Program-made: the position numbers and the translations under genes
The notes under the pieces: generated by a model
What the model saw: only the letters and a program-made list of their open reading frames with translations
What the model was told of the DNA's origin: nothing
The model's database searches: none
Assembly: GCF_016545825.1 (NCBI RefSeq)
Contig: NC_052621.1
Span: forward strand, 8,332,199 to 8,396,198
Length of the DNA: 64,000 nt
From: Eucalyptus grandis
Lineage: Eukaryota > Streptophyta > Magnoliopsida > Myrtales > Myrtaceae
Direction of reading: 5' to 3'
Part shown: piece after piece, positions 9,834-64,000 of the stretch
Layout: each line of letters begins with the position of its first letter
How positions within the stretch are numbered: position 1 is the stretch's first letter

Positions 9834-12813
9834 ATGGGCTCGATGAATTCAAACAACTGGCTATCGTTCCCCCTCTCTCCGTCATCTCACTCTTCATTGC
9901 AAGCAAATCTTCACTCCACTCAGCCTCATCAGTTTTCTCTAGGGCTAGTCAATGAAAACATGGACAACCCTTTTCACAACCAAGGTAAAATTACTTAAAT
10001 TGGAAAACCCCTCCCAAAAAACGTAGTTATTGCTACATCTGTTGGGTGATTCATTTTGTGTGTGTGTGGTTTTTTTTTTTTTTTTTCAGAGTGGAATATG
10101 ATCAATGCTCACGGGGCGAGTGGCGAGGTGCCAAAGGTCGCAGACTTCTTGGGGGTGGGCAAGTCAGAGAACCAATCAGATCTTACGGCCTTCAACGGGA
10201 TGAACCAAGCTGGCGACGCTGATTACTTGTTCCCGAGCAGCAGCCTTGTCCCAGTCCAACAGAGCGCAGTCGTGGCAGCGGCGACCTCGAGCAACTACGA
10301 GCTCCAAGAGAATGTAGGCAACATGCAGTCACTGACTCTATCCATGGGCAGCGGGAGCAAGGGCTCAGCTTCGGAGATTAGTGGGGACAACACTAGCAAC
10401 AACACGGTGGAGAATGCGCCAAGAAGGACCTTGGACACATTCGGGCAAAGAACTTCGATTTACCGGGGCGTCACCAGGTGATCAATCCTCACCAAGTCCT
10501 CATTGTCATTTTAATCTCCTCCTCTTGTCGTATGTTATGATGGAATGTCGCAAATCAAATTACACATAGTTGCAATACCTTCTATACTTGGTTTGATTGG
10601 GTCTGTCTTGGAGAAAATACCTGCAGGCATAGATGGACAGGGAGGTATGAGGCTCATCTTTGGGATAATAGTTGCAGAAGGGAAGGCCAGTCCAGGAAAG
10701 GTCGCCAAGGTATATATCTACATTTTGTTTATATTTATGCCCTGATTAGTGTCAGTCAGTCTTCTTGTTTGAATATACTTTTTTTTCCACTTTGATTCTT
10801 TGTGGTACTGACAAGATACATAATTTTTTTGTTTGTGGGTGCTGTTCTTGGTGTTTCCATTAATCTTCTGTTCCAGTCTATCTGGGTGAGTGCCATCAAT
10901 TTTTTTCTTTTTAATTTCTCTTGGTTAACAGTTGCATTTAATGATTCTGATAAGCTAATTATTTCTGTCGATTTTTCACTATAATTTTTCTTTTCCTTAC
11001 TTAGGGGGTTATGACAAAGAAGAGAAAGCAGCTAGGGCATACGATCTTGCTGCTCTCAAGTACTGGGGAACATCGACCACTACAAATTTTCCTGTTAGTT
11101 TCTTCCTTTGCTTTTTATTGTCATTGATCAGTATGTACACAAACCCAAGGCTTAGATGAACGAATAAATCTCTATTTAAATGCAAGGCGACACTCAAAAC
11201 TTTTTATACTTCTTTTATGTGTGCAGATAAGTAACTATGAGAAGGAACTCGAAGAGATGAAGCACATGACCAGGCAAGAATTCGTGGCGTCCATTAGAAG
11301 GTCAGATAACATGTTCGAACGAAAATACTCATTTCTATCTCGACAGCTTCCGATACTTTCTTCGCTATCAAGAAACGCTTATGAAGCTAAGTTGATGTTG
11401 TGGTGTTGTGTCGCTCTCCTTCGCAGGAAGAGTAGCGGCTTCTCTAGAGGGGCTTCGATGTATCGCGGAGTTACTAGGTACACGCTTCTTTCTTCTCCTT
11501 CTTCTTCTTCATCTGCTGCTGCCACTCCTTCTCCTCCTCTTCCTCATCGATTTCAATGAACTTTACGCAGGCATCACCAGCATGGACGTTGGCAAGCGAG
11601 GATTGGGAGGGTTGCAGGAAACAAAGATCTTTATTTGGGAACTTTCAGTGAGTCACTTAATATATATATATATTTATATGTGATGGGTTTTTTCTTCTCT
11701 GCTTTTTCGAAAAAATAAAATTCTGGAGATGCCCCACGGGTCAGTCTTTTGTTAATTAAACATAAAAATGTGGAAACATTTATTACTCAGCAGCAGCTGC
11801 TCGCATCTAATATTTAACTGAAAAAAGTTAGATCCTTGCTGAGAAAGTTTCCAAAGATCTATCATTTATAATGGAACATTCCATGCATGCACATACGCTC
11901 AGTCAGTCAGAATCTCTACCAAGGCCAGCACCCATTTTCTTTGATTGAAAAGCACGTGCAACCTTTCTACTTTAGGTTACTAAATACTATCCGCTGATGC
12001 AATGCATCGGCTCTTCCCTCGGCTATTCGCGGAACTGTGAAAACTGAATTTTGCGGGTTAAACGCTTTTTCAGGCACCGAGGAGGAAGCTGCCGAGGCCT
12101 ACGACATCGCGGCGATCAAGTTCCGGGGCCTCAACGCCGTCACCAACTTCGACATGAACCGCTACGACGTGAAGGCGATCCTCGAGAGCAACACACTGCC
12201 CATCGGCGGGGGCGCCGCCAAGAGGCTCAAGGAGGCCCAGGCGCTGGAGTCCTCGAGGAAGCGCGAGGAGATGATCGCCCTCACCTCGAGCTTCCAGTAC
12301 GGCAGCTCGAGCTCAGGCCGCCTCCAGTCGTACCCTCTGTTGCAGCCATCGTTCGATCACCACCACCAGCCTCAGCCGCTGCTGACCCTCCAGAACCCCG
12401 AGATCTCGCACTACTCGCAGCAAACCGACCCTTCTTTCCCCCATAATTACATCCAGACGCAATTGCAGCTTCATCAGCAGTACCAGAACCACCCTTACTA
12501 CAATAGCACCAACTATCTTCAGAGCAACCCGGCGCTGCTGCACGGGCTGATGAGCGTTGGGTCTTCGACGACGGTCATCGGGGAGAACACTAACAACAAC
12601 GGGAGTTCGAGTGGGAGCTACAGCGGAGGGTACTTGGGAATGGGCTCGAGCAGCGGCGGCGGAGGCGGCGGCGGCGGGGGGAACGGTGTCGGGTCGGAGG
12701 AGCTCGCGATGGTCAAGGTGGACTACGACATGCCTAATAGCGGTTACGGGAGCTGGTCGGCGGACTCGGTGCCGGGCTCGAACCCAGGCGTTTTCACGAT
12801 GTGGAATGACTGA
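9834..12813 (+). CDS. PLT2: PLETHORA/AINTEGUMENTA-LIKE AP2 transcription factor (PLT2/PLT1-type)
   Basis: A nuclear DNA-binding regulator; in Arabidopsis, PLT proteins are auxin-responsive dosage factors that maintain the root stem-cell niche. Exons by splice phase: 9834-9984, 10090-10477, 10627-10709, 10877-10885, 11005-11093, 11227-11300, 11427-11477, 11571-11647, 12074-12813, giving 553 aa, close to the roughly 570 aa of PLT2. The N terminus ([13 protein letters not shown]) and the motifs [11 protein letters not shown] and QSLTLSMG match PLT1/PLT2. AP2 repeat 1 starts at YRGVTR, residues 175-180, and repeat 2 at residues 277-282. A conserved linker ends in [11 protein letters not shown]. 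The C-terminal exon is Q/H/G-rich and ends FTMWND. The fourth exon is only 9 nt (TCTATCTGG) and completes VYLG. An in-frame ATG at 9843 would give the start used by Arabidopsis PLT2. Assignment to PLT2 and not PLT1 rests on overall resemblance. Confidence 0.95.
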
Positions 12814-14389: not shown

Positions 14390-15162
14390 CTTAAAGTCAC
14401 GCGCCTCTTCTGCTCAGCTCCGCTCCGTTCGCCCGCCCGCCCGCCCGCCCGCCTGCCTCGCTCCGTTCGCTCGAGCTCAGGCCAGTCGCTCGTGCCTCCT
14501 CGGAAGCCAGTCGCTCGACCCTCTCTCGCTCGCCGCTTTCTTTGTCCGGGGAAGGAGGTACCAATTCCGCACTTTCTCCTTTAGGGCATAGAATGATTAC
14601 GGGACGATTTTGCTGTTCCTTTTTTTTTTTTTTTTTTGGGAGATCTTTTCGTTGGTGATAGTGATTTGCGTTGGTGGAATTGTTATCGACCGTGTTATCT
14701 CGGCCCGAATTGTTCGGCGTCAAGTTGGCCGGGTTTTGGACGTACATGTTGCGGTTCTGATGTCGAACAGTGTGCGAAGATTGAGTGGGGATGGATTGGC
14801 ATGACTAGGACGAGAGGATTGGGGATTTAATCGATTTATGCGAGCATGGCTCGATTGTGATGGTGCAGTGTCGAATTCGAATTGTGGCTCCATTTAACTC
14901 TGGTTGATGATAACATGGGAGTAGTGCTTTTATCTTCTCTTTGCTTACTTTATGATTTTATGGTCTTCTGTATGTGGCGACTCGGTCTGTGGTAATCTTT
15001 TCGGTAGCAACACATGGGATGTCTGCTAGTTGATAACTCGACAGAAACCTCATAGAAAGTGTGGTTTAACGAGTAGAGCATTGTCTTGTCTCGAGTGCTG
15101 TTAAATTTGACGGTCTTTCATGTCTTTCATGCTTCCAGGGATATTTCTCTGCTCGGTTGGAT
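14390..15162 (+). promoter_or_regulatory. Promoter-proximal region and 5' leader of CWC22-like gene
   Basis: A GC-rich patch with a CCCG/CCGC repeat (14430-14455) is followed by sequence with leader character. A leader intron probably ends at the acceptor GCTTCCAG (ending 15138), 24 nt before the ATG. Its donor may be near 14558 (GGAG/GTACC). No clear TATA box is seen. The intron is inferred from consensus only. Confidence 0.4.
14430..14455. repeat. (CCCG)n simple repeat
   Basis: About six CCCG units in the leader of the CWC22-like gene, the only GC-type microsatellite I noticed in the window. Confidence 0.85.
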
Positions 15163-18100
15163 ATGGCGAGAAGGCACGAAGATGATGAATCTGAAGATGT
15201 AAAGTATGATAGACGAGAAACGGAGAGAAGCCACCGGCATGAAGATGGTTACAGTCGGCGGGGAGCAATAGACGGTGAGACGGGGAGAGGATCTCATCGA
15301 GATTCGAAGGAAGACAATGGGGCGAAGGATGGACGGGAAAGAAGGAGAGATCATCGGCGTGAGCATGGGCACAGGGAGCGGGATTCTGAAGCTGGTTACA
15401 GAGACAGGGAGAGGGATAGGTATTCATCACGGGACTCTGAGTATGAATATGAAAGGGCCTCGCACAAGAGATCAGAGCGTAGTAGGACCAATGGTGATAG
15501 ACATGATAGATGGAGGGATGATGATAGTGACGGGAGTCCTAGAAAAGATAGAGAGGTTTACAAAGGGCGAGATACCTCAATTAACAATGACAAAGAGGGA
15601 AGAGATCGCAAGAAGGTTGATGATTCGAAACCAGAACAAACAACATTGCGGGAGGGCAATAAGAACACCGATGCTTCAACCTTGGGCAAAAGTGGAGGAG
15701 TTTACATGCCACCATTTAAGTTGGCCAGAATGATGAAAGAGGTCCAAGACAAAACTAGTGTTGAGTATCAAAGGTTGACATGGGATGCTTTAAGGAAGAG
15801 TATAAATGGTCTAGTGAATAAAGTCAATGCAACAAACATTAAGAATATCATTCCAGAACTTTTTGCTGAGAATCTTATCCGAGGAAGGGGTCTTTTCTGC
15901 CGTTCTTGTATGAAGTCTCAAATGGCTTCTCCAGGATTCACAGATGTCTTTGCTGCATTGGTTGCTGTTGTCAATACAAAGTTTCCAGAGGTTGGCGAGC
16001 TTCTACTTAGAAGGATTGTTTTGCAACTTAAGAGAGCTTATAAGCGGAATGACAAGGTACGGTCACATGTCTCTTGGTTGAGATGTCTTAGCTCACTTGT
16101 TGATTATTCATACTTTCGGTGTTAATTTGTTTTTTTTTTTTTTTTTGGTTGTATTCTCAACAGCCTCAATTACTTGCTGCTGTTAAATTCATAGCACATC
16201 TGGTTAACCAGCAAGTGGCTCATGAGATTATCGCTTTGGAGCTGCTCACTGTTCTGCTGGAAAATCCTACCGATGATAGTGTAGAGGTGGCTGTTGGCTT
16301 TGTGACTGAGTGTGGTTCCATAATGCAAGACCTTTCTCCTAAAGGTTTACATGGTAGGTATATGTTGTGAAGTTCAAATTATATCCAGCTTGTTGCTCTT
16401 CAATTCTTGCTTGGGTGCATGTATCATTAAATTGTGAGGCAATCTGTTGGATAGTGCTCTTTCATGGTTGGATATGAATTCATGAGATCAGAGTTGGAGA
16501 TCATGAAGGAGACAGCAGATTTGACGAATGGTTAAGCTTGTATCATTCATCAAGTATAGTGTCATCATGCTATATCCTAAGGCTTTCTATATCATGTCAT
16601 ATCATCTAAGTCATCCTTTTATGTAGTTAAGAAGATAATTTTTACTATACAGTGTGCATGACTAGCACTTCTATTGTCTTGCACTGGCTTCTTAATTCTG
16701 ATAATTTTTTCAGGTATCTTTGAGCGGTTTCGTGGAATTCTTCATGAAGGTGAAATAGATAAGCGAGTTCAGTTTTTGATTGAAGGTCTTTTTGCCATTA
16801 GAAAAGCTAAGTTTCAGGTCAGTTACTCCAATCTCTCTTACTTGGGTGAGAAAGTACAATTTTTCTTTTGGAGAGGTTAATCGAGCATGCATGTCTTGGC
16901 CTCCTTACTATCATAACTTAAATTTTCCCATGTACATACAGGGTTATCCCGCGGTTCGCCCAGACTTGGACCTTGTGGAGCAAGAAGATCAACTGACACA
17001 TGAGATATCACTCCAGGAGGACATTGATCCAGAAATTACTCTTGGTATCTGTCTACTTATCCAGTTATGGGGAAGCTACTTATAATCTGCGTATTATATT
17101 GTCTGATATTTTTTCTTTTGTCATACTTGTTTCTGGACCAGACATATTCAAGCCTGATCCGCAATTTGCGGAGAATGAGAAGCGTTATGAAGAATTGAAG
17201 AAAACCATTCTTGGTGACGAGTCTGAGGAGGAAGAAGATTCTGAAGAAGGCTCAGAAGATGGATCAGATGAGGAATCTGAGGAAGAAGATGATGAACAGA
17301 TGAAAATTAAAGATGAGACAGAGACTAATCTTGTAAACCTCCGGAGAACAATCTATTTGACGATTATGTCCAGTGTTGATTTCGAGGAAGCAGGGCATAA
17401 GCTATTAAAAATTAAGCTTGAACCTGGACAAGAGGTTAGACACCTTTTCAGTCATTGCAGCCAAATTTGAATACTTGTTTCTTTCTTTCCCTTGATTTCT
17501 AAGAAGGTTGTCCATAGGATGAAATGGTTTTAATGGTCTGTTATTTTTTTTGTCCGGCGATTTTGAGAATTTAAATAAATATTTGCTGATTTTTGTCCCA
17601 TAACCAAAGTGGATTTGGCTGATGTATAATCTTTCTGTTGAACTTGCTTTTAGGCTGTATTTTTAGAGCTGATTGCTTTGCATGTTATAATTAATCTGTA
17701 AATGAGGTCGACTGGTTTGGTTTTGTGTATTGCACTGACTTTGAAACTGCAGCAATTGTAAATTCTAGTTATCCAATTTTTTGCTCGTGACGCAAAATTG
17801 GTGCCTTTTCTTTTCCCAATTTTGTCTCTGTATTTAATATACTCCTACCATTACGACAATTAATCAATTGTGTACTTCTTTTTTTGTCAGAATCAATTTT
17901 GTTTTCAGATGTTTGGTTGTTGGAAGACTTTCTTGCGCATTACTTTTGCCAGATGAGTTTTGAGTAGTTTAATAGTAGGAAGAAAAGTTGAGATTTTTTT
18001 CAATTTTGGTTGATCATCTTCTTTGAGTATTTTTTTTTTCCTGATCATTTTGATTGACCTAGTTGATAAGACATATAGCAGCTAGACTTGATAGCTTGAA

Positions 18101-21487: not shown

Positions 21488-22582
21488 TTAACATGCTCGG
21501 AGGGGCTTCCCGCAGAGGCAGTCGTTGTACGCGAAGGACGACGCCTCGAGGTGGTCGAACGGTGCACCCCCCGGGATCCGCCCGCAGAGGTGGTTGTGGC
21601 TAAGGTCCATGTGCCCGATGAAGGACGCGGACGATATGGACCTCGGGATCGGGCCGCGGAGGCCGTTGTACGAGAGGTCGAGCGCGGTGAAGTAGGACCT
21701 CGGCCCGAAGACGTCCGGGATCGTGCCTTGGAGAGCGTTCCTGCTGAGGTTCAAGGTGCTCACCGCGGAGTTGATCAGAGTTCGGGGGATGGGGCCGGAG
21801 ATCTTGTTCGAGTCGAGGTTCAGCGTGGCGAGGACCGCCATCTTGCCGAGAGAAAGCGGGATCGGACCTGATAGCTGGTTGAAAGAAAGGTCGAAGTCCG
21901 CCAATCGGTATATGTCCGAAACCGAGTCGGGTATGGTCCCCGTGATCCGGTTCCCGCTTAGCAGAGCCCGGCTCAACATCCTCAGCTTCCCGAAATCTCG
22001 GGGCAGTGGACCCGAGATCCGGTTGTTCCTCATGTCCAAGTGCATCAAGCTCGAGAGATTGGTCAATGACCGGGGGATCTCGCCGGTGATCATGTTGTCC
22101 GCAACATTGAGCACCGTTAGGCGGTGGAGCTTCCCAATGTTCGCGGGGATCTCGCCGGAGAGGCGGTTCCCTATCAGGTCAAAGACCCGGAGGAACGGGA
22201 TCGTGGTGATGCAGCTCGGGATCTCGCCGGTGATGCCCTTCCAGTCGGCAAGCGTCAGACTGGCGAGGCCCTTGAGCCTGCATATAGCCGGGGAGATGGT
22301 GCCCGTCATGTAACCGGTCCGCTTCGCCCGCTCGAAGATCGGGTCCTCTGACTCGCCGCGGAGGTTGATGTCGGCAACGCGGCGGGTCTCGGCATCGCAG
22401 CTGACGCCGTACCAGTTCCAGCAGCAGTCGGTGCCGGTCCAGGAGTTGAAGATGCCTAGGTAGGGCTCGTGGAGGCTGGCTCTAAAGGCCAGGAGGGCCG
22501 CCCGGTCGGACGGAGGGCAGCAGTCGACGGCGGATGCGGCGGCGAGAAGTAGCAGGGCGACGCAGAACAAGGGAGAGTCCAT
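21488..22582 (-). CDS. DRT100-like secreted leucine-rich-repeat protein
   Basis: A 364-aa intronless protein, close to the roughly 370 aa of Arabidopsis DRT100. It starts MDSPLFCVALLLLAAASA, a clear signal peptide. The plant LRR N-terminal cap follows, with paired cysteines (DCCPPSDRAALLAF and TDCCWNWYGVSCD). About ten plant-type LRRs follow (consensus LxxLxLxxNxxSGxIPxxxxxL, e.g. LSFNQLSGPIPLSLG). The C-terminal cap is NDCLCGKPLRAC. There is no transmembrane segment or kinase, so an apoplastic protein is expected. DRT100 was named from partial complementation of bacterial DNA-repair mutants; most relatives are considered cell-wall LRR proteins, so a repair role should not be inferred. The gene could equally be called polygalacturonase-inhibitor-like in the broad sense, but the ending is DRT100-type. 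Confidence 0.93.
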   Translation of the reverse strand: MDSPLFCVALLLLAAASAVDCCPPSDRAALLAFRASLHEPYLGIFNSWTGTDCCWNWYGVSCDAETRRVADINLRGESEDPIFERAKRTGYMTGTISPAICRLKGLASLTLADWKGITGEIPSCITTIPFLRVFDLIGNRLSGEIPANIGKLHRLTVLNVADNMITGEIPRSLTNLSSLMHLDMRNNRISGPLPRDFGKLRMLSRALLSGNRITGTIPDSVSDIYRLADFDLSFNQLSGPIPLSLGKMAVLATLNLDSNKISGPIPRTLINSAVSTLNLSRNALQGTIPDVFGPRSYFTALDLSYNGLRGPIPRSISSASFIGHMDLSHNHLCGRIPGGAPFDHLEASSFAYNDCLCGKPLRAC

Positions 22583-22654
22583 CGTTTTCCGCTGCAAGCG
22601 TGCGCGTTGCTTGGATTCTTTCTTCTAGGGTTATCGACAGAAGTCTGTTCTTGT

Positions 22655-53786: not shown

Positions 53787-54974
53787 GAAATATGGCTCCG
53801 CACTTGATCCCAGTTCTTCTTTATGATGTGTATATAGGTAGAGGATCCCCATGTACGATCTTTTTCAACAAATTTGAAGAGAAGAGGGCAAAAAACTTTC
53901 ACTGTCCCAAGCATACAAACCATCAGTTGATGTCCTATGTATTGATGTTTGAATTATCTGATAAAGGAAATTGGACTTTCCCCAATCCTACAGTTTTCCT
54001 TTGTCCAAGTGTTATTGTTGTTGCTGTTGTTGCGAAGTATATAGATTAAAAACAGTTGTAGAAAGCTGTCAGCCTGCGATGCAAATTTGGTTGTTGGGAA
54101 ATTTTTCTATTTTGCAGATTGTTCAATTTAATACGATTATAAGTGATCTGTGGAATTTCTATCCTAAGGAAACCGTGGGATGAATTGTCAAAACCAGTGT
54201 TTATTTTAGTCACAGTCAAGTGGGAGGACAGACTGGATCTGAAGGCCACAGTGCCTCCTGTGAAATACACGGAAAGTTGTGGAGATGATGAAGTGTGAAT
54301 CTTGAGGGCTTGCTACTGGAAAGACTAAAGACTGCACATTTTTGTTTCTTGCAGAGTCAGTTGATTTTGTTTAGTTATGTTGTCATCTGTTGCTTTCCCG
54401 TCCACGTCTTTGGATGACTTTTGTATTGAATGAGGCCTCAGATTAGAAGCTAAGATTAGTTCACTTGATTTTTTTAAAGAAATGATAATGTCAACATAGG
54501 ATATATCAGTCCAAAGTCGATTGTACAGATGCTGAAATGTAAAGAAACACTGATTTGATGACTCGGTGGCACGGTGCTGAGACCTAGGAAATCTATCCTT
54601 TCCACTTCGGAACAACACGAAAGTATCAATGGAAGGCTTTATTTGGCAAGGCCTCTTTGATGATTGGATGGTAGTTTCTAATTTCAAATCGTGTAGAAAT
54701 ATGATGGAAGAAATTATTGCAACAAGAAGTGACGGCATTAGGTAGTGTTGCAATAAAGAGGAAACTTCTTTGTTAGTTCTTAACGGAGTCCTAGAGCAGA
54801 GAGGCCAGAGTCGTTGGACAAGACTTGAGCTCTTTTCCCTACTTTTTCATGAAGAAAAACTGAAAACACCTTGATTTCTTAAGCTACCTCTAGTGTTCCC
54901 TCATCCTCTGTATGTTTCAATTCCGAGTCTTCAATTGCAGCTTTTGCTTCTCTAAGCAAAGCATGGTGATTGAC
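53787..54974. other. 3' flank of the PDZ-like gene and left part of duplication unit A
   Basis: Contains the 3' untranslated region of the PDZ-like gene. From about 54105 to 54330 it is homologous to 58503-58740. From about 54535 onward it is homologous to about 60710 onward. No independent gene is seen. Confidence 0.6.
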
Positions 54975-56193
54975 ATGGCAGAGCTCTAGTGGGCCAAGCT
55001 GTCCTCTCTGCTTCGCTCCAGGTACTATTCGACAGATTGGCGTCTTGCAGGCTGATAGACTAGGTCTGGAGACAGAAAGATGAGGAAGTTCCGCTGAAGA
55101 AGCTAAAGGCAAGCCTTCTATTTGCCGAGGCAGTGTTGTCTAATGCGGAGCTTAAGCAAATCACAGACTCCACCATGAAAGGGTGGCTAGACCAGCTAGA
55201 AGAAACTGTCACCGATGCTCAGAATCTCTTGAATGCTGTTGAAGCCAGAGATTCACCGAGGAGGTTCAGAGGTGGATCAAGAAGCAAATTGCCAGAAGAC
55301 ATGCTCAACGGATTGGAGCTTATGGCTGGGCAAAAAGATGCCTTTGGCTTCATAGAACTAGGAGTACAGCCTTTGCAGGCATCCCCGACGATGTCTTTGA
55401 TGCAAAAGCCTAACATCTATGGTAGGGACGAAGATATGGAGGCGATACTCAGCTTGTTGCTGTCCGATGATGCGCCAGGTGACCCAATATGTGTGATTAC
55501 CATCGTTGGTGTCCCAGGGATTGGCAAGACCACGCTTGCTCAGTCTGTTTACAATGATAATAGCGTGGAAGGGTATTTTGACTTCACAGTTTGGATCTGT
55601 GTCTTGAACAGGTTTGACGTTTATTCGATTACCAAGACATTCCTAGAAGCAATAACTATGGCGAGTTGTGATATTAAGAATCTGAATCTTCTTCAACTGA
55701 GACTCAGAGAAGAACTAATCGGCTGGAAACTCTTACTTGTTCTGGATGATGTTTGCACTGAGGACTGCACAGAATGGAACACACTGCAAAGTCCTTTAAG
55801 ATTCTGTGCACCAGCAAGCAAGACCATAGTGACCACTTGTAGTGAAATAACAGCAGCAATGACATGCACGCTGCCAGCTTACATTTAAGCCTGCTATCCT
55901 ATGAAGATTGCTGGTTGATCTTCGCTCAACATGCATTTGACAGTATACTCGATGCTCCAGATCCAAACCTAGAAGCAGTAGGCAGAGAAATTGTGAAGAA
56001 ATGCGGAGGACTTTCTCCAGTCACCAAATCCCTTGGAGTTCTGTTCTGCTCTAAACCAAACCATGAGTGGAATGAAATCTTGACGGATAGCAGGTGGGAT
56101 GCATCGCATGATATAAACAGCTTTATGCAGACTTTTATTGTACAACCTCAAGTTGTGGTTATCCACCTCTCTGATTCTTTGGTTCTATATTAG
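54975..56193 (+). pseudogene. Broken CC-NB-ARC (CNL-type) segment, copy A
   Basis: Aligned to copy B at 61120, the ATG (54975) is followed by a one-base deletion that brings in TAG after four codons (MAEL-stop). Further stops lie in the coiled-coil part. The frame is clean from about 55130 until a second one-base deletion at about 55882, after which the following part reads in another frame to 56193. Motifs present: P-loop GVPGIGKTT, RNBS-A FDFTVWICV, kinase-2 LLLVLDDVC, RNBS-B KTIVTTCSE. The GLPL motif is decayed to GLSP. There is no LRR. CNL proteins are cytosolic immune receptors; this copy cannot encode a full segment without repair, so it is called a pseudogene. Sequence similarity to copy B remains high. 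Confidence 0.85.
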
Positions 56194-56254
56194 CAGCTCA
56201 ATCGTCTTAATCTAAACTTGCAGTGATTGGGTTTGGACTTTTCCTTGGGTGTAG

Positions 56255-57322
56255 ATTAGAAGTGGAACGGGTGAATGGAGAAGAAAGCTTTTGGAAAGAA
56301 ATCATGACAAAAATTTCTTCCCACGGGGCCTGAATCAGTTCAGGGGCACATCCCCATTTATAAAGATCAAGAGGGCATGGCTTTCCAAACTTCTGGTGCT
56401 CTGGATCATGGTTCTGAGCATTGTGAGCGCATTGGTTTACAAGACTGTAGACGATTATCAGATCACAAAAATGGAGGAGGCATTGGGAAGCATGTGCGAT
56501 ACACAGGCATGGATGCTACAGAATCAGTTTATGGTCAATGTAAATCACATCCAAGCACTTGCTATGGTGGTGAGATTTTATTACGAACAGAATGCAACAC
56601 GTACTAAACGGGCGTGTCTCACACAACTCTCTTGGATATGATTTATCGATCTCTTTTCTATGCTGAACCTGATTGGTTCATTGAATCTTAAAGGTGGCCG
56701 GACCTGTTAATTGTTGAAAAGGTAGATTAGTTTTATCCATATAGTTTTAAGAATAAATGGCAATTTGTTGTTTTATGTCATATTACTTTTTAATAGTTCT
56801 TCTGCAACAAGATGCAGAGGCAATTTAGAGCTTGGATAAACTCTTTTGCATTACTTTCTGGAGTGACTTACGCAGAAAGAATGTGTCTCTGGGAAAGGAA
56901 AGTAATTTGGAGAGGGCTGGTGTGGAAGAAGATGATGCCTAAGACCTTTAAAAGCCGCCCGCCTTTGCTTGTTCAAGAAGATTTTGCAATGGTCGCAGCC
57001 TGTCAAAAAAACATCGCTCATGAGATCGCACTGATGAATTCACTTAACATTATGGCTGAAACGATACCTCATCTGTTATTTTCTCTTTACACGCTATGTC
57101 TTCGTATTTCTGCATTATGACGCTTAATTGGGGCACGTGTTTGCATGTTGCATGACCCAGGAAGATCGAGATCATGTATTGAAGGCAAGAACCATTGAAG
57201 AAGCTGTATTATCAAGCCCCTTCAGGCTGTTAGGATCAAATCGGACTGGAGTGGTTTTGACATATCCTGTTTACAGATCCAATCTCTCATCGAGCATGTG
57301 TTCGGAAGGGCAGTTTGTCTAG
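56255..57322 (+). pseudogene. Decayed transmembrane-CHASE exons of cytokinin-receptor type, copy A
   Basis: Three exon-like blocks correspond to copy B: 56255-56611 (TM helix LVLWIMVLSIVSALVY plus EEALGSMCDTQAWMLQNQF and VNHIQALAMVV), 56812-57063 (LLSGVTYAER, then diverged), and 57161-57322 (EDRDHVLKARTIEEAVLSSPF, TGVVLTYPVY). Damage relative to B: the first donor is GC instead of GT at 56612. The second donor has lost its G (AT at 57064). The second block has lost 12 codons and the PSPVQEEY motif. The third block has a deletion of about 19 nt near 57300 followed by a stop. CHASE is the extracytosolic cytokinin-binding domain of AHK receptors. No kinase follows directly. Confidence 0.8.
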
Positions 57323-57646
57323 TGTTGCTCTTTCTCATGGCATTCTTTAGTATAGTTAGGTTCGATCGAATGAGGATGCGGTCCTCTCTAATCATGATTT
57401 CTCTGAGGAACTGGACCAACCATTTCCTAGGAATGTTTGACCCTTGCTAGAAGCCGCCTGTGAGATGGGCTGGATACTACTAGAGCTAGTTTCAAATGAT
57501 TCAAGTTTCCAACGGAACTACTTAACTGAAATTCATGTCCCTTGCCCTAGCCACTCCCATTTCAGAAAGACCCGCATTACTTATTGTTTTCCTGCTATGA
57601 TTTCATGGTGTCGTTTGTGTGCTATTTTGATTGCAACCTTGACCTT

Positions 57647-58204
57647 GTCAAACTTACTAATGGAAAATATTGACTTGGCACTGACATGGCTCATTAGATT
57701 TAAAAACTAAAGAAGAAAAGCTAAAATTTATTTTTGAAAAAACTGTTAAAAAAAATAGAGAAAATGGCAGCTCTGCTGCTGTTGCCGCCCATCGCCAGAG
57801 GGGCCGGCGATGGTCGTTGGCCATGGGCGGAGGTGGCCGGCCGTCACCCGACCAGGATGAGGCCTTGCCCAAGGCTAGCGAAGGTCATTGGCCCCGTGAG
57901 GGCTGGCGTGCGCGCCGAGCCCGAGCCTGGCAAGGGTTGCTGGCCCTTGCCTAGGGCTGGCAAGGCCTCACCCTAGTCGAGCGGAGGTTGGGTGGCAGCT
58001 GGCCACCTCCATCCAAGGCCACCGTGGTAGTGGCGAAGGACCTGCCATTTTCTCTCTTTTTTTAACAGTTTAAAAAAATAAATTTTAGGTTTTCTTTTTT
58101 AGTTTTTAAATCTAATTTTGAATAAAAATAATTTAAAAAAAATCATGTGAAAATGAAGATTTATTTAAAAAGCCACGTCAGTATTTTTCGTTAGTAAGTT
58201 TGAC
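57647..58204. mobile_element. Foldback (MITE-like) element inserted in unit A
   Basis: Starts GTCAAACTTACTAA and ends TTAGTAAGTTTGAC, perfect 14-bp inverted ends. The second arm pair, about 70 bp (57699-57770 against 58042-58110), is also strongly complementary, e.g. AAAATGGCAG against CTGCCATTTT. The core (57771-58041) is GC-rich with GGCCATGG and GCTGGC words. The insertion point is where homology to unit B stops, so it arrived after the duplication or was lost from B. No coding capacity. Confidence 0.8.
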
Positions 58205-58370
58205 GGTATTAATTTTAGGACTCAATTAAACCAATTTGACAAGTTTAAGTATTTAATTGCACTTTTTACAAGTTTTAGGACTTCTATTACGCTCATCCCT
58301 TGTTTTTTCTAATAGCTCATACGATCAAGGGACCGAATCTTTACATAATGCATGCTTTCATTTTCTCACA
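58205..58370. other. Repeat-like spacer
   Basis: AT-rich sequence of the 'ggactcaattaaacc...tttaattgcac' type common in dispersed plant repeats, lying between the foldback element and the histidine-kinase remnant. Confidence 0.4.
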
Positions 58371-58452
58371 GAAACTCTAGCCATGCTCCTTGATACTGAA
58401 CTGAGTTCAACGCAAAGGGGCTACAAAAATATGCAGCTCAACGAGGAAAAGG
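58371..58452 (+). pseudogene. Histidine-kinase (HisKA) exon remnant
   Basis: After a CAG acceptor-like triplet the translation reads LAMLLDTELSSTQRGY, which matches the segment just after the phosphoacceptor helix of AHK cytokinin receptors as I remember it. Homology is lost after about 18 residues, and a GTATTAC donor-like sequence follows at 58453. It lies downstream of the CHASE exons of copy A, in the same order as in a full receptor gene, so it is probably the last trace of the kinase part. It is too short to function. Confidence 0.6.
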
Positions 58453-58502
58453 TATTACTTGCAGATCAGACAGAATTATAGACAACCGTGGGATGAATTT
58501 TG

Positions 58503-58740
58503 TCTATTTTGCAGTTTGTTCAATTTATTACAATCATAAGTGATCTGTAGAACTTCTATACTAAGGAGAATCGTAGACAACCGTGGGATGAATAGTCAAA
58601 ACCGGTATATGTTATCATCGCAGCCGAGTGTGAGAATAGACCGGCTCCGAAGTGCACGGTGCTTTCTCTGTGAAGTTCGTGGAAAGTTGTGGAGGTGGTG
58701 GAGTGTGAAACCTTGGGACTTGTTCTTGCCAAAGACTAAA
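58503..58740 (+). repeat. Left flank of tandem duplication unit B
   Basis: Homologous to 54105-54330, the 3' flank of the PDZ-like gene: TCTATTTTGCAG, TAAGTGATCTGT, CCGTGGGATGAAT, GGAAAGTTGTGGAG and AAGACTAAAG occur in the same order. The word GACAACCGTGGGATGAAT occurs twice here (58481 and 58572). Confidence 0.8.
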
Positions 58741-58774
58741 GGTGACATATCCCGATTTACAAGAAAAAAGGCAT

Positions 58775-60690
58775 GACACAACCGTTCTTTCACCAAACGA
58801 TACGGCCTTAACATACCTAAAATTCAACTTGATATCAACATATATACATTCACATATATATATTTGACAAAAATGGCATTTAGTTACAATATCAGAGTAT
58901 TTCTTTAATTCACCAAACCAAAACATATATCTTATGCAAAAACTAACTTATAAACTTATCAACTATATACAAAAAGTTCTCCCGAAGAACCCCTTAAAAG
59001 AACCTGAAAAACAAGTAGATGAAAGGAGTGAGCTACTACGGCTCAGTAAATAACACATTTCTTCTAAGCGGATCGATAAATCACTATGCACATTTAAAAA
59101 CACATTCCTGACTCATTTTAATGTACTATATAATTGTAACTTAAATATCAAAGATACCAATGGTCCAATCCATCGGCCAATCTCATAAAACATGTATCAA
59201 TGGTCTATTCTATTGATTAATCTCATTAAACTATACATCAATAGTCCATTCCATCTACCAAACTCAAATCACATATCAATGGTCTACTCCATTGATCCAT
59301 TCATGCTCAAATGTCTAGCCATGGTCACGTGTAATGCCTATGACTAGACGACCAAGATTCTCCCTTGGCAAGATCTCCACTTATTATTAGTCGATGGCTC
59401 GGCTCACAAGGATATCTAAACTAGTATGCACGTACCCACACACCCCTCAAGGTTCATAGAGACATTGAGCACCAACCATCAATCACAATATCCAGTAATC
59501 CAACATCAGAAGGAAAGTCATATCACAACTCAAAATTTGATATATAAATATCAAAGTGTTCTCCAAAACGTTTCAAGATTCTTTTATAAAGAATTTCACA
59601 AACCATTTTCAAACAACCATTCAAATCGAATTCGAAATATAACTCATTTTAACCAACAAAATGGCAGTAATAGTTTGATCTTGTTTTATGCAACAAAAGA
59701 TGTTTTTTATCAACTCATAAAATATATAATCCACCACGTTTCTCAAAACATGAGTTTAAAATACAAAGAAGAAATAGTGTCACTTACCTGGGAAAAATCA
59801 AAAATCAACCATGACGCTTATTCGAACCAATGCACTCGGATCCTAACAATTAACGGAAAAGCAATATCAAAAGGCCAAGTAAAAAGGATATTTTTATAAT
59901 GACTTGCCTATACTAGGCCTATTTGTCGATGAAACGATACCTATGCGCCACGAAAGCCCAAATTTGTGGAAAGTCATTGTTTTCCGCTAGACATGGCCCA
60001 CGTGGTAACTTTGTTGCACTAAATTCCTCCACAAAATTCCGTTTCAAGCCGTCTTATAGTCCTTACAAAACTCTCTTGATGTACTACAATAACCCCAACT
60101 CAGCCACTCCAAAACAGCACTGAAAACGACAGAAAAATCAGGCTCAAAACTACTGTCCGCTATAGTTCCAGAATGCGCCCCCAACTTCAAAATTCTGTTC
60201 CAGACAAACCACAAGCTCAAATCATGATCCGTAAGATATTATAACTTCACAACATCCCAAAGTATCATTTCTACAAATATATGCAGCTCAACAACTTAAA
60301 AATCGGGTTTTGCAGCACAAATATCCAAGAAATCCGAATTTCGAGCCCTAATTGCGACAATTGCTTCAAGTAGATGATTAAAGGCTTCAATAAGGCGTAC
60401 CAACATTGCAAAACAAACTTGAGCCCACCAATTTTTTTTTCTTTTTACCTTTTTTCCTTTCTCTTCTTTCTCTCCTCTCCCCTGTTTCTTTATTTCCCCT
60501 ATTTTCGTTTCTGCTGAAGCCCTCCCTCTCTCCTCTCTTCAAAACAGCTGAAGCTTCCACTATTTTTCTGAAGCTTCTTTTGTTGACTTTTCAAATCCTT
60601 TCTTTTCCTTTTTTTTTTAGCCCATATATTACAAGAGGCTTTGAACTTTTCTTTTTCTTGCGGAGTTGGTCATCCGTGGGAGCGAGGGCT
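58775..60690 (-). mobile_element. Retroelement-like insertion in unit B
   Basis: This stretch interrupts homology between the two duplication units and is absent from unit A. It starts TGACACAACC. Its texture (GGAGTGAGCTACTACGGCTC, tandem units, pyrimidine-rich right end) resembles LTRs of plant gypsy elements in reverse orientation, but I found no convincing CA end or target duplication. No protein domain is encoded. Ends and class are uncertain. Confidence 0.4.
59157..59312. repeat. Tandem array of about 40-bp units
   Basis: Four diverged head-to-tail units of the form ATCAATGGTCTATTCTATTG followed by ATTAATCTCATTAAAC. Unit starts are near 59158, 59198, 59239 and 59277. The array lies inside the insertion above. 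Confidence 0.75.
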
Positions 60691-61119
60691 AGTTTACTTG
60701 ACAAATTAGAGAAATGATTCAATGACGCGGCGGCATGGTGCAAAGCCCCAGGAAATTTCTTCTTTGCACTCCAGAGCAACGCGTCAATATCACTGAAAAG
60801 CTTTGTTTGGCAAGGCATCTTTCTTTAATGATTGAATGGTTCTAACTTCGAACTGCACGTGGAAATATATTTGAAGAAACTATAGAAGCAAGAAGGGTAA
60901 AATAGTGTGCGATTGAGAGGAAGCCTCTTCTTTAGTTCTTAAAAAAGGACAAGAGCAGAGGGGCCAGAGTAGTTGGTCAAGAATTGAGCTCGTCCTTCGT
61001 TCTTTCCATGAAGTAAAAGACACATTGATTTCTGAAGTTAATCAAAGTGTTCCCTCATCCTCTTTATCCTGTGATTCCATTGCCGTTTTTGCTTCTCTTA
61101 GCAAAGCCTAGACTCTGAC
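60691..61119 (+). promoter_or_regulatory. Upstream region of copy B
   Basis: Homologous to 54515-54974 upstream of copy A, so the shared promoter or leader was duplicated with the gene. It contains no long reading frame. A TATA box is not obvious. Confidence 0.4.
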
Positions 61120-62298
61120 ATGGCAGGAGCTCTAGTGGCTGGAGCTGTCCTCTCTGCTTCGCTCCAGGCACTATTCGACAGATTGGCTTCTCGGCTGATA
61201 GACTCTGTCTGGATACAGAAAGACGAGGAAGTTCTGCTGAAGAAACTGAAGGCAAGCCTTGTATTTGCTGAGGCAGTGTTGTCTGATGCGGAGCATAAGC
61301 AAATCACAGATCCAACCGCAAAAGGGTGGCTAGACCAGCTAGAAGAAACCGTCGCCGATGCTCAGAATCTCTTGAATGCTATTGAAGCCAGAGATTCACC
61401 GAGGAGGTTTAGAGGTGGATCCAAAAGCAAATTGCTAGAAGACATGCTCGATAGATTGGAGATTATGGTGAGGCAAAAGGATGCCTTTGGCTTCATAGAA
61501 CTAGGAGCACAGCCTTTGCAGACGTCCCCAACGACATCTTTAATGCAGGAGCCTAACATCTATGGTAGAGACGAAGATATGGAGGCGATACTCAGCTTGT
61601 TGCTATCCGATGAAGCACCGGGTGACCCAATATGCGTGATTACCATAGTTGGTGTCCCAAGGATCGGCAAGACCACGCTTGCTCAGTCTATTTACAATGA
61701 TAATAGCATGGAAGGGTATTTTGACTTCAGAGTTTGGATCTGCGTCTCGAACAGGTTGGATGTTTATTCGATTACCAAGACAATCCTAGAAGCAATAACT
61801 ACGGTGAGCTGTGATATTAAGGACCTGAATCTTCTTCAACTGAGACTCAGAGAAGAACTAATCGGCCGGAAACTCTTACTTGTCCTGGATGACCTTTGCA
61901 CTGAGGACTGCTCGGAATGGAACACACTGCGAAGTCCTTGGAGATTCTGTGCAAAGGCCAGCAAGATCATCGTGACTACTCGAAGTGAAATCACAGCAGC
62001 CATGACGTGCACGCTGCCAGCTTACCATTTAAGCCCGCTACCCTACGAAGATTGCTGGTTGATCTTCGCTCAACATGCATTTGATAGTGGACTCGGTGCT
62101 CCAGATCCAAACCTAGAAGCAGTAGGCAGAGAAATTGTGAAGAAATGCAGAGGCCTTCCTCTAGTCGCTAAGACCCTTGGAGTTCTGTTCCGCTCTAAAC
62201 CAAACCATGGGAAGTGGAATGAAATCTTGACGGATAGCATGTGGGATGCATCACATGACTTGAACAGCTTTGCACAGGCTTTAAGTGTACGGCGGTAA
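61120..62298 (+). CDS. Truncated CC-NB-ARC (CNL-type) protein or first exon of an NB-ARC-CHASE fusion, copy B
   Basis: Open for 392 aa from ATG 61120. Residues 1 to about 120 form the coiled-coil (Rx-N-like) part, starting MAGALVAGAVLSASLQALFDR. NB-ARC motifs: P-loop GVPRIGKTT (178-186), RNBS-A FDFRVWICVS (201-210), kinase-2 KLLLVLDDLC (251-260), RNBS-B SKIIVTTRSE (281-290), GLPL RGLPLVAK (344-351). It stops where full CNLs begin ARC2 (ALSVRR-stop), so RNBS-D, MHD and LRR are missing. CNLs are cytosolic immune receptors with ATP switching. Odd residues: Arg for Gly inside the P-loop, Cys for the usual Trp after kinase-2, and DAQNLLNA where relatives have DAEDLLDE. An alternative end is splicing at 62286/62287 (AGT/GTACGG) into the CHASE exon at 62402, which keeps frame. 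Standalone truncated gene, decoy or fusion cannot be decided here. Confidence 0.85.
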   Translation: MAGALVAGAVLSASLQALFDRLASRLIDSVWIQKDEEVLLKKLKASLVFAEAVLSDAEHKQITDPTAKGWLDQLEETVADAQNLLNAIEARDSPRRFRGGSKSKLLEDMLDRLEIMVRQKDAFGFIELGAQPLQTSPTTSLMQEPNIYGRDEDMEAILSLLLSDEAPGDPICVITIVGVPRIGKTTLAQSIYNDNSMEGYFDFRVWICVSNRLDVYSITKTILEAITTVSCDIKDLNLLQLRLREELIGRKLLLVLDDLCTEDCSEWNTLRSPWRFCAKASKIIVTTRSEITAAMTCTLPAYHLSPLPYEDCWLIFAQHAFDSGLGAPDPNLEAVGREIVKKCRGLPLVAKTLGVLFRSKPNHGKWNEILTDSMWDASHDLNSFAQALSVRR

Positions 62299-62401
62299 CT
62301 TTTGGTTATCGACCTCTCTAATTCTCTGGTTTTATTTTAGCAGTGCAATAATCTTAATCTAAACTTGCATTGATCACGTTTTCACTTTTCCTTGGGTGTA
62401 G

Positions 62402-63513
62402 GTTAGAAGTGGAATAGGTAAATGGAGAAGAAAGCTTTCGGAAAGACAACATGATGAAAATTTCTTCCCAGGGGTTCTGAATCAGTTTGGAGACACATTC
62501 CCATATATAAATATCAAGAGGGTATGGTTTTCCATATTTCTGGTGCTCTGGATCATGATTCTGAGCATTGTGAGTGCATTGGTTTACAAGACTGTAAAAG
62601 ATTATCAGACTACAAAAATGAAGGAGGCATTGGGAAGCATGTGCGATAAACGGGCATGGATGCTACAGGATCAGTTTGCGTTTCATGTTAACCACATCCA
62701 CGCACTTGCTATGGTGGCCAGACTTTATGACCAACAGAATGCAACATATACCACACAGGTGTGCCCTACACAACGCTCTTGGATATTGATTTATTGACCG
62801 CTTTTATGTTCTTGTTCATTAAATTTAGAAGGATGGACCCGTTAATCATTGAAAATGTAGATCATCATCCATATAGTTTTAAGAATAAATGGTGGTCACA
62901 GTTTTGAACTTTCACCTGCAACAAACAGCAAAGTTTGAGTATCTCGGTTCTGCATGTCGTATAACTCATGTTAATAATTCTTCTGCTGGAAGATGGGAGA
63001 GGCTCTCGAGGGCCACATGGATAATACTACTTTCAAGCGCCCATTACTTTCTGGAGTGGTTTATGCAGAACGAGCGGGTCATTGCAAGATTGATGATAAG
63101 AGAGGGCGGCAATGGCATATAATGCATGTGACCCCCGAAAGCGAGCCTCGCGAGCCTTCACCTGTTCAGGAAGAGTATGTACGCTACGAATTTGGTGAAG
63201 ATGACAATGCTTATATGGGGCCTCTTCTGAGTTCACTTGGCATGATGACAGGAGAGGTACCTCTCCTGTTATTTTCTCTCTACACACTAGATCTTCGTAC
63301 TTCCACAATACCAATGCCTAATTCGGGATATTTCATGACTCAGGAAGATCGACATCATGTATTGAAGGCAAGAGCTGTTGAAAAAGCTGTCTTATCAGCC
63401 CCCTTCAGGCTGTTTTCGTCAAATCGGACCGGAGTGATTTTGATATATCCTGTTTACAAATCCAAATTCTCACCAAGCGTGAGTTTGGAAGAGCGCATCA
63501 GAGCCACTGCAGG
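62402..63513 (+). CDS. Transmembrane-CHASE exons of cytokinin-receptor type, copy B (partial)
   Basis: Exons 62402-62758, 62993-63256 and 63344-63513 join in phase. The first opens VRSGIGKWRRKLSERQ, then a helix of about 21 hydrophobic residues (FLVLWIMILSIVSALVY), then the CHASE start (EALGSMCDKRAWMLQDQF, VNHIHALAMVARL). Exon 2 carries TTFKRPLLSGVVYAER and REPSPVQEEY. Exon 3 carries EDRHHVLKARAVEKAVLSAPF, TGVILIYPVYKS and EERIRATAG. Motif order and exon junctions (before and after the RPLLSG exon) follow AHK receptors. The Asp of EDR, remembered as the adenine-contacting residue of CRE1/AHK4, is kept; the Thr in VLTSPF is Ser. There is no ATG at the exon start, so an upstream exon is needed; the NB-ARC exon 115 bp away is in compatible phase. 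No kinase exons occur before the window edge. A weak further exon may lie at 63609-63725. Confidence 0.8.
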
Positions 63514-64000
63514 GTTTGTCCAGTGTTGCTCTTTATCGCAGCATTCCATAGTAAAATTATGATCGATTGAATGAGTGTTTGGTTCTCTCAAATCATGATT
63601 TCTCATAGGAACTGGACCAACCATTTACTATAAATATTTGGCTGTTGCTAGAAGAGGCCTGTGAGATGAACTGGATACTGTTGGAGCCAGTTTCAAATGC
63701 TTCAAGTTTGCACTTGGATACTTGACTGAAATTAGTCTCCCTTGCCCTAACCGCTCGCATTTCGGACAGAACTGAATTACTACTTGTTTTCCTGCTATGA
63801 TTTCCCAATTCTGTGTCTCTATTATTCAACCATTGGCTGTTCTATCACACATGCATGATTGTGTTTGCGTGATATACCGATTGCAACCTTGATCTTATTG
63901 TATGACGAACTTCTAGGATAAGGCTGGCTCGTGCATGCCATGATTTTGCATATTCCGGATACTTCAGGAGTCTCTGGTTAAGTTTGCCTTGCATTATGTA
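63514..64000 (+). other. 3' tail of duplication unit B to window edge
   Basis: Collinear with 57310-57646 of unit A up to about 63895. A possible decayed exon at 63609-63725 after TCATAG reads ELDQPFTIN...WILLEPVSNASSL before a stop. It faintly resembles the segment after CHASE in AHK proteins (NQ..V.VYDITNAS). The window ends before any kinase exon could be checked. Confidence 0.4.

Follow-up and report, generated by a model that had tools for sequence, protein, structure and literature searches.

The 64,000-nucleotide stretch of Eucalyptus grandis DNA analysed here (contig NC_052621.1, positions 8,332,199 to 8,396,198; hereafter the window) carries what we judge, with rather better than even confidence, to be one chimeric gene, in which a 5′ exon of an RPP13-like coiled-coil (CC) nucleotide-binding leucine-rich-repeat receptor (CNL; NLR for the wider class) is spliced to exons of the HK4 type, the HK4 half being a non-signalling dimerisation or decoy module. 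The CNL part would consist of Rx_N, NB and ARC1, and the HK4 part of the N-terminal linker, a first transmembrane helix (TM1) and CHASE, followed in relatives by a second helix (TM2) and a DHp stub. From the sequence comparisons below, the join of the CC-nucleotide-binding (CC-NB) part to the CHASE part at 62286/62402 is very probably right, and since gene models of eucalypts, Syzygium, Trapa and Punica encode corresponding single-chain proteins, the locus seems to be an ancient fusion that has been retained, not two genes that are neighbours by accident. The NB-CHASE unit is present twice in tandem (54535-57604 versus 60703-63804, 79% identity); copy 1 (54975-58433) is a pseudogene, and copy 2 is the gene in question (Table 1).

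On the NB side, the open reading frame (ORF) at 61120-62298 matched the Pfam families Rx_N (E = 6.4e-13; 49.1 bits against a cut-off of 27.7) and NB-ARC (E = 1.2e-41; 143 bits; profile positions 2-219 of 248), and exon 1 matched the PDB structure of RPP13-like 4 (6j5t) at 2.2e-30. The P-loop (GVPRIGKTT), kinase 2 (LLLVLDDL) and GLPL motifs are kept. A first-pass annotation, made from the letters of the window, had described a CNL segment that stops at the start of ARC2, and the Pfam matches and an alignment with intact NLRs bore this out: the window copy and seven relatives leave the alignment before LSYxYLP, and the copy 2 protein has NB and ARC1 and lacks ARC2, MHD and the leucine-rich repeats (LRRs). 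Pfam returned no LRR match in the seven proteins scanned. The same annotation had called this part a cytosolic nucleotide switch; the NB-ARC motifs are there, but because ARC2, MHD and LRR are missing, the known NLR switch cycle should not be assumed. We also observed that an acidic motif at 61357-61386, which we take to be EDVID-like, reads DAQNLLNA or similar in the window copy, P0001, P0002, P0003, P0072 and P0078, and DAEDLLDE in the intact NLR P0189; assuming that this motif contacts the LRR, its alteration is presumably in line with LRR loss.

The unspliced NB ORF ends in a stop at 62296-62298, and a phase-0 GT lies upstream of it at 62287, as had been noted. The CHASE-side exon opens in phase 0 at 62402, preceded by CCTTGGGTGTAG, and holds no ATG ahead of the membrane helix, its first Met lying inside that helix (mean Kyte-Doolittle value 2.73 over 19 residues); the earlier description of an exon that lacks a start codon and follows an acceptor in phase 0 was thus accurate. 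The CHASE side consists of three exons (A, B and C), every border of which is GT-AG. Exon A by itself gave no Pfam match above the cut-off. The unspliced ORF at 62978-63559, which covers the last two CHASE exons, matched Pfam CHASE (1.9e-07; 31.5 bits, cut-off 25) and the AHK4 sensor (PDB 3t4j; 9e-23), and together with the hydropathy value these matches place the membrane helix and CHASE exons downstream on the same strand, where they had been annotated. Splicing 62286 to 62402 gives an open frame of 652 codons, close to the roughly 650 first proposed, which is still open at the end of exon 4. Between the copies, intron 1 aligns without a gap and its 115-bp spacing is kept. Under neutral simulation, with the non-coding divergence of copies 1 and 2 as calibration, freedom from stops and frameshifts in copy 2 had a probability of about 3e-5 for the NB exon and about 5e-4 for the CHASE exons.

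Exons A to C carry TM1 and CHASE, of which only the large part lies within the window. The C-termini of the relatives had no significant match past exon 4 of copy 2 (to 64000), and an exon for the last third of the Corymbia CHASE domain was not found in 57201-61000 or 63401-64000. The 3′ exons of copy 2 (TM2, DHp stub and stop) would sit beyond 64000. Copy 1 retains a DHp remnant, detected by tblastn with the P0002 C-terminus against 4.4 kb (E = 5.9e-07) and with whole P0002 against the window (E = 2.9e-04), and because this remnant (58359-58433) follows the CHASE exons of copy 1, the gene once extended past CHASE.

Table 1. Features of the two tandem NB-CHASE copies in the window
Feature	Position	Strand	Details
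Copy 1 NB exon, broken	54975..56145	+	1-bp gap after ATGGCA, stop 55061-55063, 1-bp gap near 55881
Copy 1 CHASE exon A, open	56255..56611	+	acceptor kept, donor GC for GT
Copy 1 CHASE exon B, open	56812..57063	+	58% identity to copy 2; donor AT for GT
Copy 1 CHASE exon C	57161..57307	+	3′ end deleted relative to copy 2
Copy 1 HK4 DHp helix remnant (LAMLLDTELSSTQRGY)	58359..58433	+	tblastn
Copy 2 exon 1: Rx_N coiled coil and NB-ARC to ARC1/ARC2 border	61120..62286	+	Pfam, PDB match, NLR alignment
Copy 2 intron 1, 115 bp	62287..62401	+	donor AGT/GTACGG (weak by eye), acceptor GGGTGTAG
Copy 2 exon 2 (exon A): basic linker, TM1, CHASE stalk helix	62402..62758	+	HK4 similarity
Copy 2 exon 3 (exon B): first part of CHASE PAS-like domain	62993..63256	+
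Copy 2 exon 4 (exon C): CHASE core (EDRHHVL...FRLFSSNRTGVILIYPVYKSKF...ATAG)	63344..63513	+	Pfam CHASE, PDB 3t4j; ends at donor GTTTGT
Copy 2 next intron, start	63514..64000	+	matches non-coding DNA 3′ of copy 1

The first-pass annotation had suggested a protein search for NB-ARC and CHASE in one chain, and this search returned five predicted fusions from two families. With the CHASE part as query (candidate lengths being set by the joined protein), the three best matches were predicted single chains with Rx_N, NB-ARC and CHASE: Corymbia citriodora BT93_J0223 (80% identity over the CHASE part), Syzygium grande NL676_004406 (74%) and E. grandis LOC104421549 (P0003; 61%). A fourth match lacking a kinase, E. 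grandis EUGRSUZ_J00805 (P0004), has CHASE only and starts inside TM1; annotated as a CHASE-only histidine kinase, it may be a fusion gene that lost its NB exon or whose NB exon escaped annotation. The remaining 67 of 71 matches also have histidine-kinase domains, the best of them being HK4. When the Corymbia NB part was the query, the same three proteins led again among the best 120 of 459 matches, and the next seven rows included further fusions from Punica granatum (pomegranate; LOC116211369, 54%) and Trapa incisa (water chestnut; SAY87_025584, 49%), the 601-residue P0073, whose NB part runs into a TM1/HK segment, and P0074, an NB-only piece; the other rows were NB-ARC proteins lacking CHASE, mostly with LRRs. 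When the five fusions were aligned and used together as the query, these five came out on top, followed by P0073 and P0074 and then by NLRs (best 120 of 497). By the precomputed domain columns, both Pfam domains occur in 4 of the 235 distinct proteins returned; Punica CHASE scores 21.3 bits, under the cut-off of 25.

Corymbia, Syzygium and Eucalyptus belong to the Myrtaceae and Trapa and Punica to the Lythraceae, all within the Myrtales. The window copy, the five fusions, P0073 and P0074 all break off their NB part at the homologous residue, immediately ahead of the LSYxYLP of intact NLRs. The predicted proteins of three Myrtaceae (P0001, P0002 and P0003) share the junction LS/(I/V)RS.IGKWRR (first slash, boundary), which matches the splice deduced for the window; the two Lythraceae fusions have their parts in the same order and leave the NB alignment at the homologous residue. 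In a tree of 30 NB rows, which included both window copies, P0073 and P0074, the fusion rows fell on one side of a branch with support 100/100; in a tree of 32 CHASE rows, which included both window copies and P0004, they did so with 99/97 (99/96 after removal of the long Punica row and copy 1). Because each half forms one clade, the simplest reading of these trees would be a single fusion before the Lythraceae-Myrtaceae split. Such a fusion would date to the order of 100 million years ago.

Both membrane helices are kept in the relatives, the second one being present in all five fused proteins, and three of the five extend into a DHp stub that lacks the phospho-accepting His. Pfam gave no HATPase or receiver match in the relatives, and HisKA in the E. 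grandis protein fell below the cut-off (24.4 versus 26.9), with the His lost. The TM-CHASE architecture first described is therefore present but incomplete at its 3′ end, since the relatives run on through TM2 and in part into the stub. The AHK4 sensor matched P0001 at 7e-72. The source of this half was probably HK4; HK3 was set aside as the source since the best matches, the DHp letters and the tree favour HK4, but a test confined to CHASE did not reject HK3 (p-AU 0.331).

We then compared the hormone pocket with AHK4, taking the contact positions from PMC3491891 and mapping them on the AHK4 chain, where 10 of 10 letters fitted one offset. In the part of PMC3491891 covered here, Thr294 bonds trans-zeatin and a T294A change abolished binding. 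Window copy 2 keeps W221, Y250, D262, K274, F281 and R282 and carries T278S, L284F, T286S and T294I; T278S and T286S are found in canonical histidine kinase rows too. Seven of eight fusion-type rows retain W221, D262 and R282, all eight retain F281, and three have Phe for L284. Ile occupies position 294 in copy 2 of the window and in the Corymbia, Syzygium, Trapa and Punica proteins; Thr is found there in P0003 and P0004 of E. grandis, in pseudogene copy 1 and in six kinase rows. Because the Thr294 contact is lost in most members, hormone sensing in the AHK4 mode appears doubtful for most of them. Of the outward ligand-binding domain proposed in the first-pass annotation, the CHASE domain itself is present, but its Thr294 contact is Ile and its exons show no measurable purifying selection (see below).

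For the function of the chimera, we tentatively propose, at somewhat less than even confidence, a membrane-tethered CC-NB protein whose HK4 half is a dimerisation handle and decoy, not a signalling receptor. By HK4 topology, CC-NB would be cytosolic, CHASE would face the endoplasmic reticulum lumen or the apoplast, and the C-terminal stub would be cytosolic. The protein could pair with genuine HK4-type receptors via its stalk and DHp helices while not feeding the phosphorelay, and a CC-NB module set beside such a receptor might report tampering with it or damp cytokinin output. The gene would have arisen once, in a Myrtaceae-Lythraceae ancestor, when an incomplete HK4 copy came to have an NB exon upstream of it and splicing joined an HK4 acceptor to a cryptic donor at the border of ARC1 and ARC2. 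More boldly, the family might constitute a new receptor class, a membrane-spanning CC-NB built on a captured cytokinin receptor, older than the Myrtaceae-Lythraceae split, in which the CHASE sensor or heterodimerisation with HK4 controls CC-NB; this we regard as possible, though on the unlikely side. CHASE would then be a fast-evolving lumenal or apoplastic domain not tuned to trans-zeatin, perhaps responding to another small molecule or to pathogen-made cytokinins.

The most serious competitor, which we nonetheless hold to be unlikely, is that CC-NB is the sole working part and that the CHASE half is a decaying relic, at most a membrane anchor. Purifying selection acts on the NB part, whose between-copy ratio of nonsynonymous to synonymous divergence (dN/dS) is 0.34 (bootstrap 0.22-0.50; dS 0.233, introns 0.247), versus 0.86 in CHASE exon A, 0.82 in exon B and 1.11 in exon C, none of which shows measurable purifying selection; these ratios call for caution, one of the two copies now being dead. 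Across the Myrtaceae (window copy 2 and three relatives), NB identity is 85-90%, against 39-91% for the CHASE exons overall and 39-79% for exon B, the least conserved of them, and much of CHASE is lost in Punica. Decay does not, however, sit easily with the open CHASE exons of copy 2, improbable under the neutral simulation, with exons A to C being open even in dead copy 1, with gaps in exon B that are multiples of three in 4 of 4 cases between the copies, or with the retention of both membrane helices in all five relatives. The hormone-gated receptor of the first-pass annotation, in which CHASE binds cytokinin and shifts the state of the cytosolic CC-NB module, strikes us as improbable: the CHASE fold is predicted to be intact in P0001, W221, D262, F281 and R282 are kept in at least seven of the eight fusion-type rows, and copy 2 also keeps Y250 and K274, but the zeatin-bonding residue is Ile in five proteins, three rows have Phe for L284, a nucleotide switch would lack its ARC2 and exon B is the least conserved CHASE exon among Myrtaceae.

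That gene predictors alone joined two separate genes, or the members of a dead chimeric pseudogene family, seems more improbable still. Copy 1 is clearly dead and some models miss exons (the Syzygium model lacks the last CHASE exon), but the first CHASE-side exon has no start codon ahead of its helix, five species from two families have predicted proteins with the same NB break, three of them with an identical junction, each half has one origin, the 115-bp spacing is free of gaps and the copy 2 frame is improbably clean. Two unrelated neighbouring genes were set aside on the conserved NB break and the shared origin of the halves; random pseudogene debris describes copy 1 and, by the neutral simulation, not copy 2.

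Several points weigh against a fusion whose HK4 half serves as handle and decoy. The intron 1 donor is weak, and copy 1 has ATT/GTACAA at that site. The relatives are predicted gene models, and such models can run two adjoining genes together. Because the Corymbia and Trapa proteins finish at or just past the His position, the DHp handle is not universal. A grouping of the fusions with HK3 was not rejected on the CHASE segment, and the lack of measurable constraint on the CHASE exons also counts here. Punica lacks about 50 CHASE residues, including the W221, Y250 and D262 positions, a loss as compatible with decay as with a new role. That the protein pairs with HK4 or acts in immunity is a proposal of ours.

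Exon B also differs strikingly between the copies (56812-57063 versus 62993-63256), with 58% identity against about 78% for the introns on either side. Because its synonymous divergence (0.87) far exceeds that of the introns (0.25), replacement from a distant paralogue is likelier, and plain fast evolution was set aside on the same ground. Elsewhere in the window, a 378-codon open frame on the minus strand (21488-22624) has LRRNT_2 and LRR_8 matches, and we take its product to resemble DRT100-type plant LRR proteins. On the plus strand, 15070-16125 encodes the start of an RS-rich protein with an MIF4G match below the cut-off, presumably like the splicing factor CWC22, and 10050-12813 contains exons that by eye resemble an AP2 transcription factor of the PLETHORA/AINTEGUMENTA type, two of which gave nothing in Pfam. 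Scans of the 64 kb for tRNA genes and Rfam families returned nothing.

Plant NLRs are usually viewed as cytosolic switches that have little to do with hormone receptors in membranes. A conserved protein combining CC-NB with a membrane sensor would, if real, physically link immunity with cytokinin signalling and suggest that HK4 is guarded or mimicked. NLRs with an integrated domain (NLR-ID) are a known kind; the survey texts covered name no fusion to CHASE. No description of NB-ARC with CHASE was found in the covered portions of open-licence full texts, supplementary NLR-ID tables and subscription papers being outside that scope. The covered parts of the main texts of PMC4759884, PMC10720953 and PMC12787737 mention no CHASE domain (in PMC12787737 the word occurs as an author's name), other NLR and genome papers in which the word was counted gave zero or an author's name, and PMC13331592 uses it only where CRE1 is briefly described. 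Such fusions would probably be missed by surveys that require an LRR; the Melaleuca study, in the part covered, counted only models with NB-ARC plus LRR (PMC10720953).

Compared with known systems, the NB half resembles CNLs of the RPP13-like 1 and At3g14460 type in having Rx_N and NB-ARC with motifs through GLPL, the closest intact NLRs reaching at most 49% identity over the CC-NB part (best 120 of 459); it differs in having membrane helices and CHASE in place of ARC2, MHD and LRR. The other half shares with HK4 (CRE1/AHK4) the N-terminal linker, TM1 and the fold of CHASE; relatives also share TM2 and the first part of DHp. The fusions differ in their CC-NB N-terminus, in the absence, in the relatives, of kinase, receiver and phospho-His and, in most, in the loss of Thr294. 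Medicago truncatula CHK5 is described, in the part of PMC6518804 covered, as a truncated HK4-type receptor unique to that species and possibly a recent duplicate; that part mentions no NB-ARC. Rice CHARK combines CHASE with a Ser/Thr kinase, binds cytokinin, is confined to the rice clade and is retrogene-like, according to the covered part of PMC7814049. There too a single lineage has combined CHASE with a signalling domain of other origin, but in the fusions described here the foreign part is N-terminal, the introns are kept and two families share the arrangement. Finally, as in NLR-ID proteins and integrated decoys, NLR parts would be fused to a domain of another signalling protein; here, however, the NLR is cut down to CC-NB, the LRR is absent and the partner is a two-pass membrane receptor.
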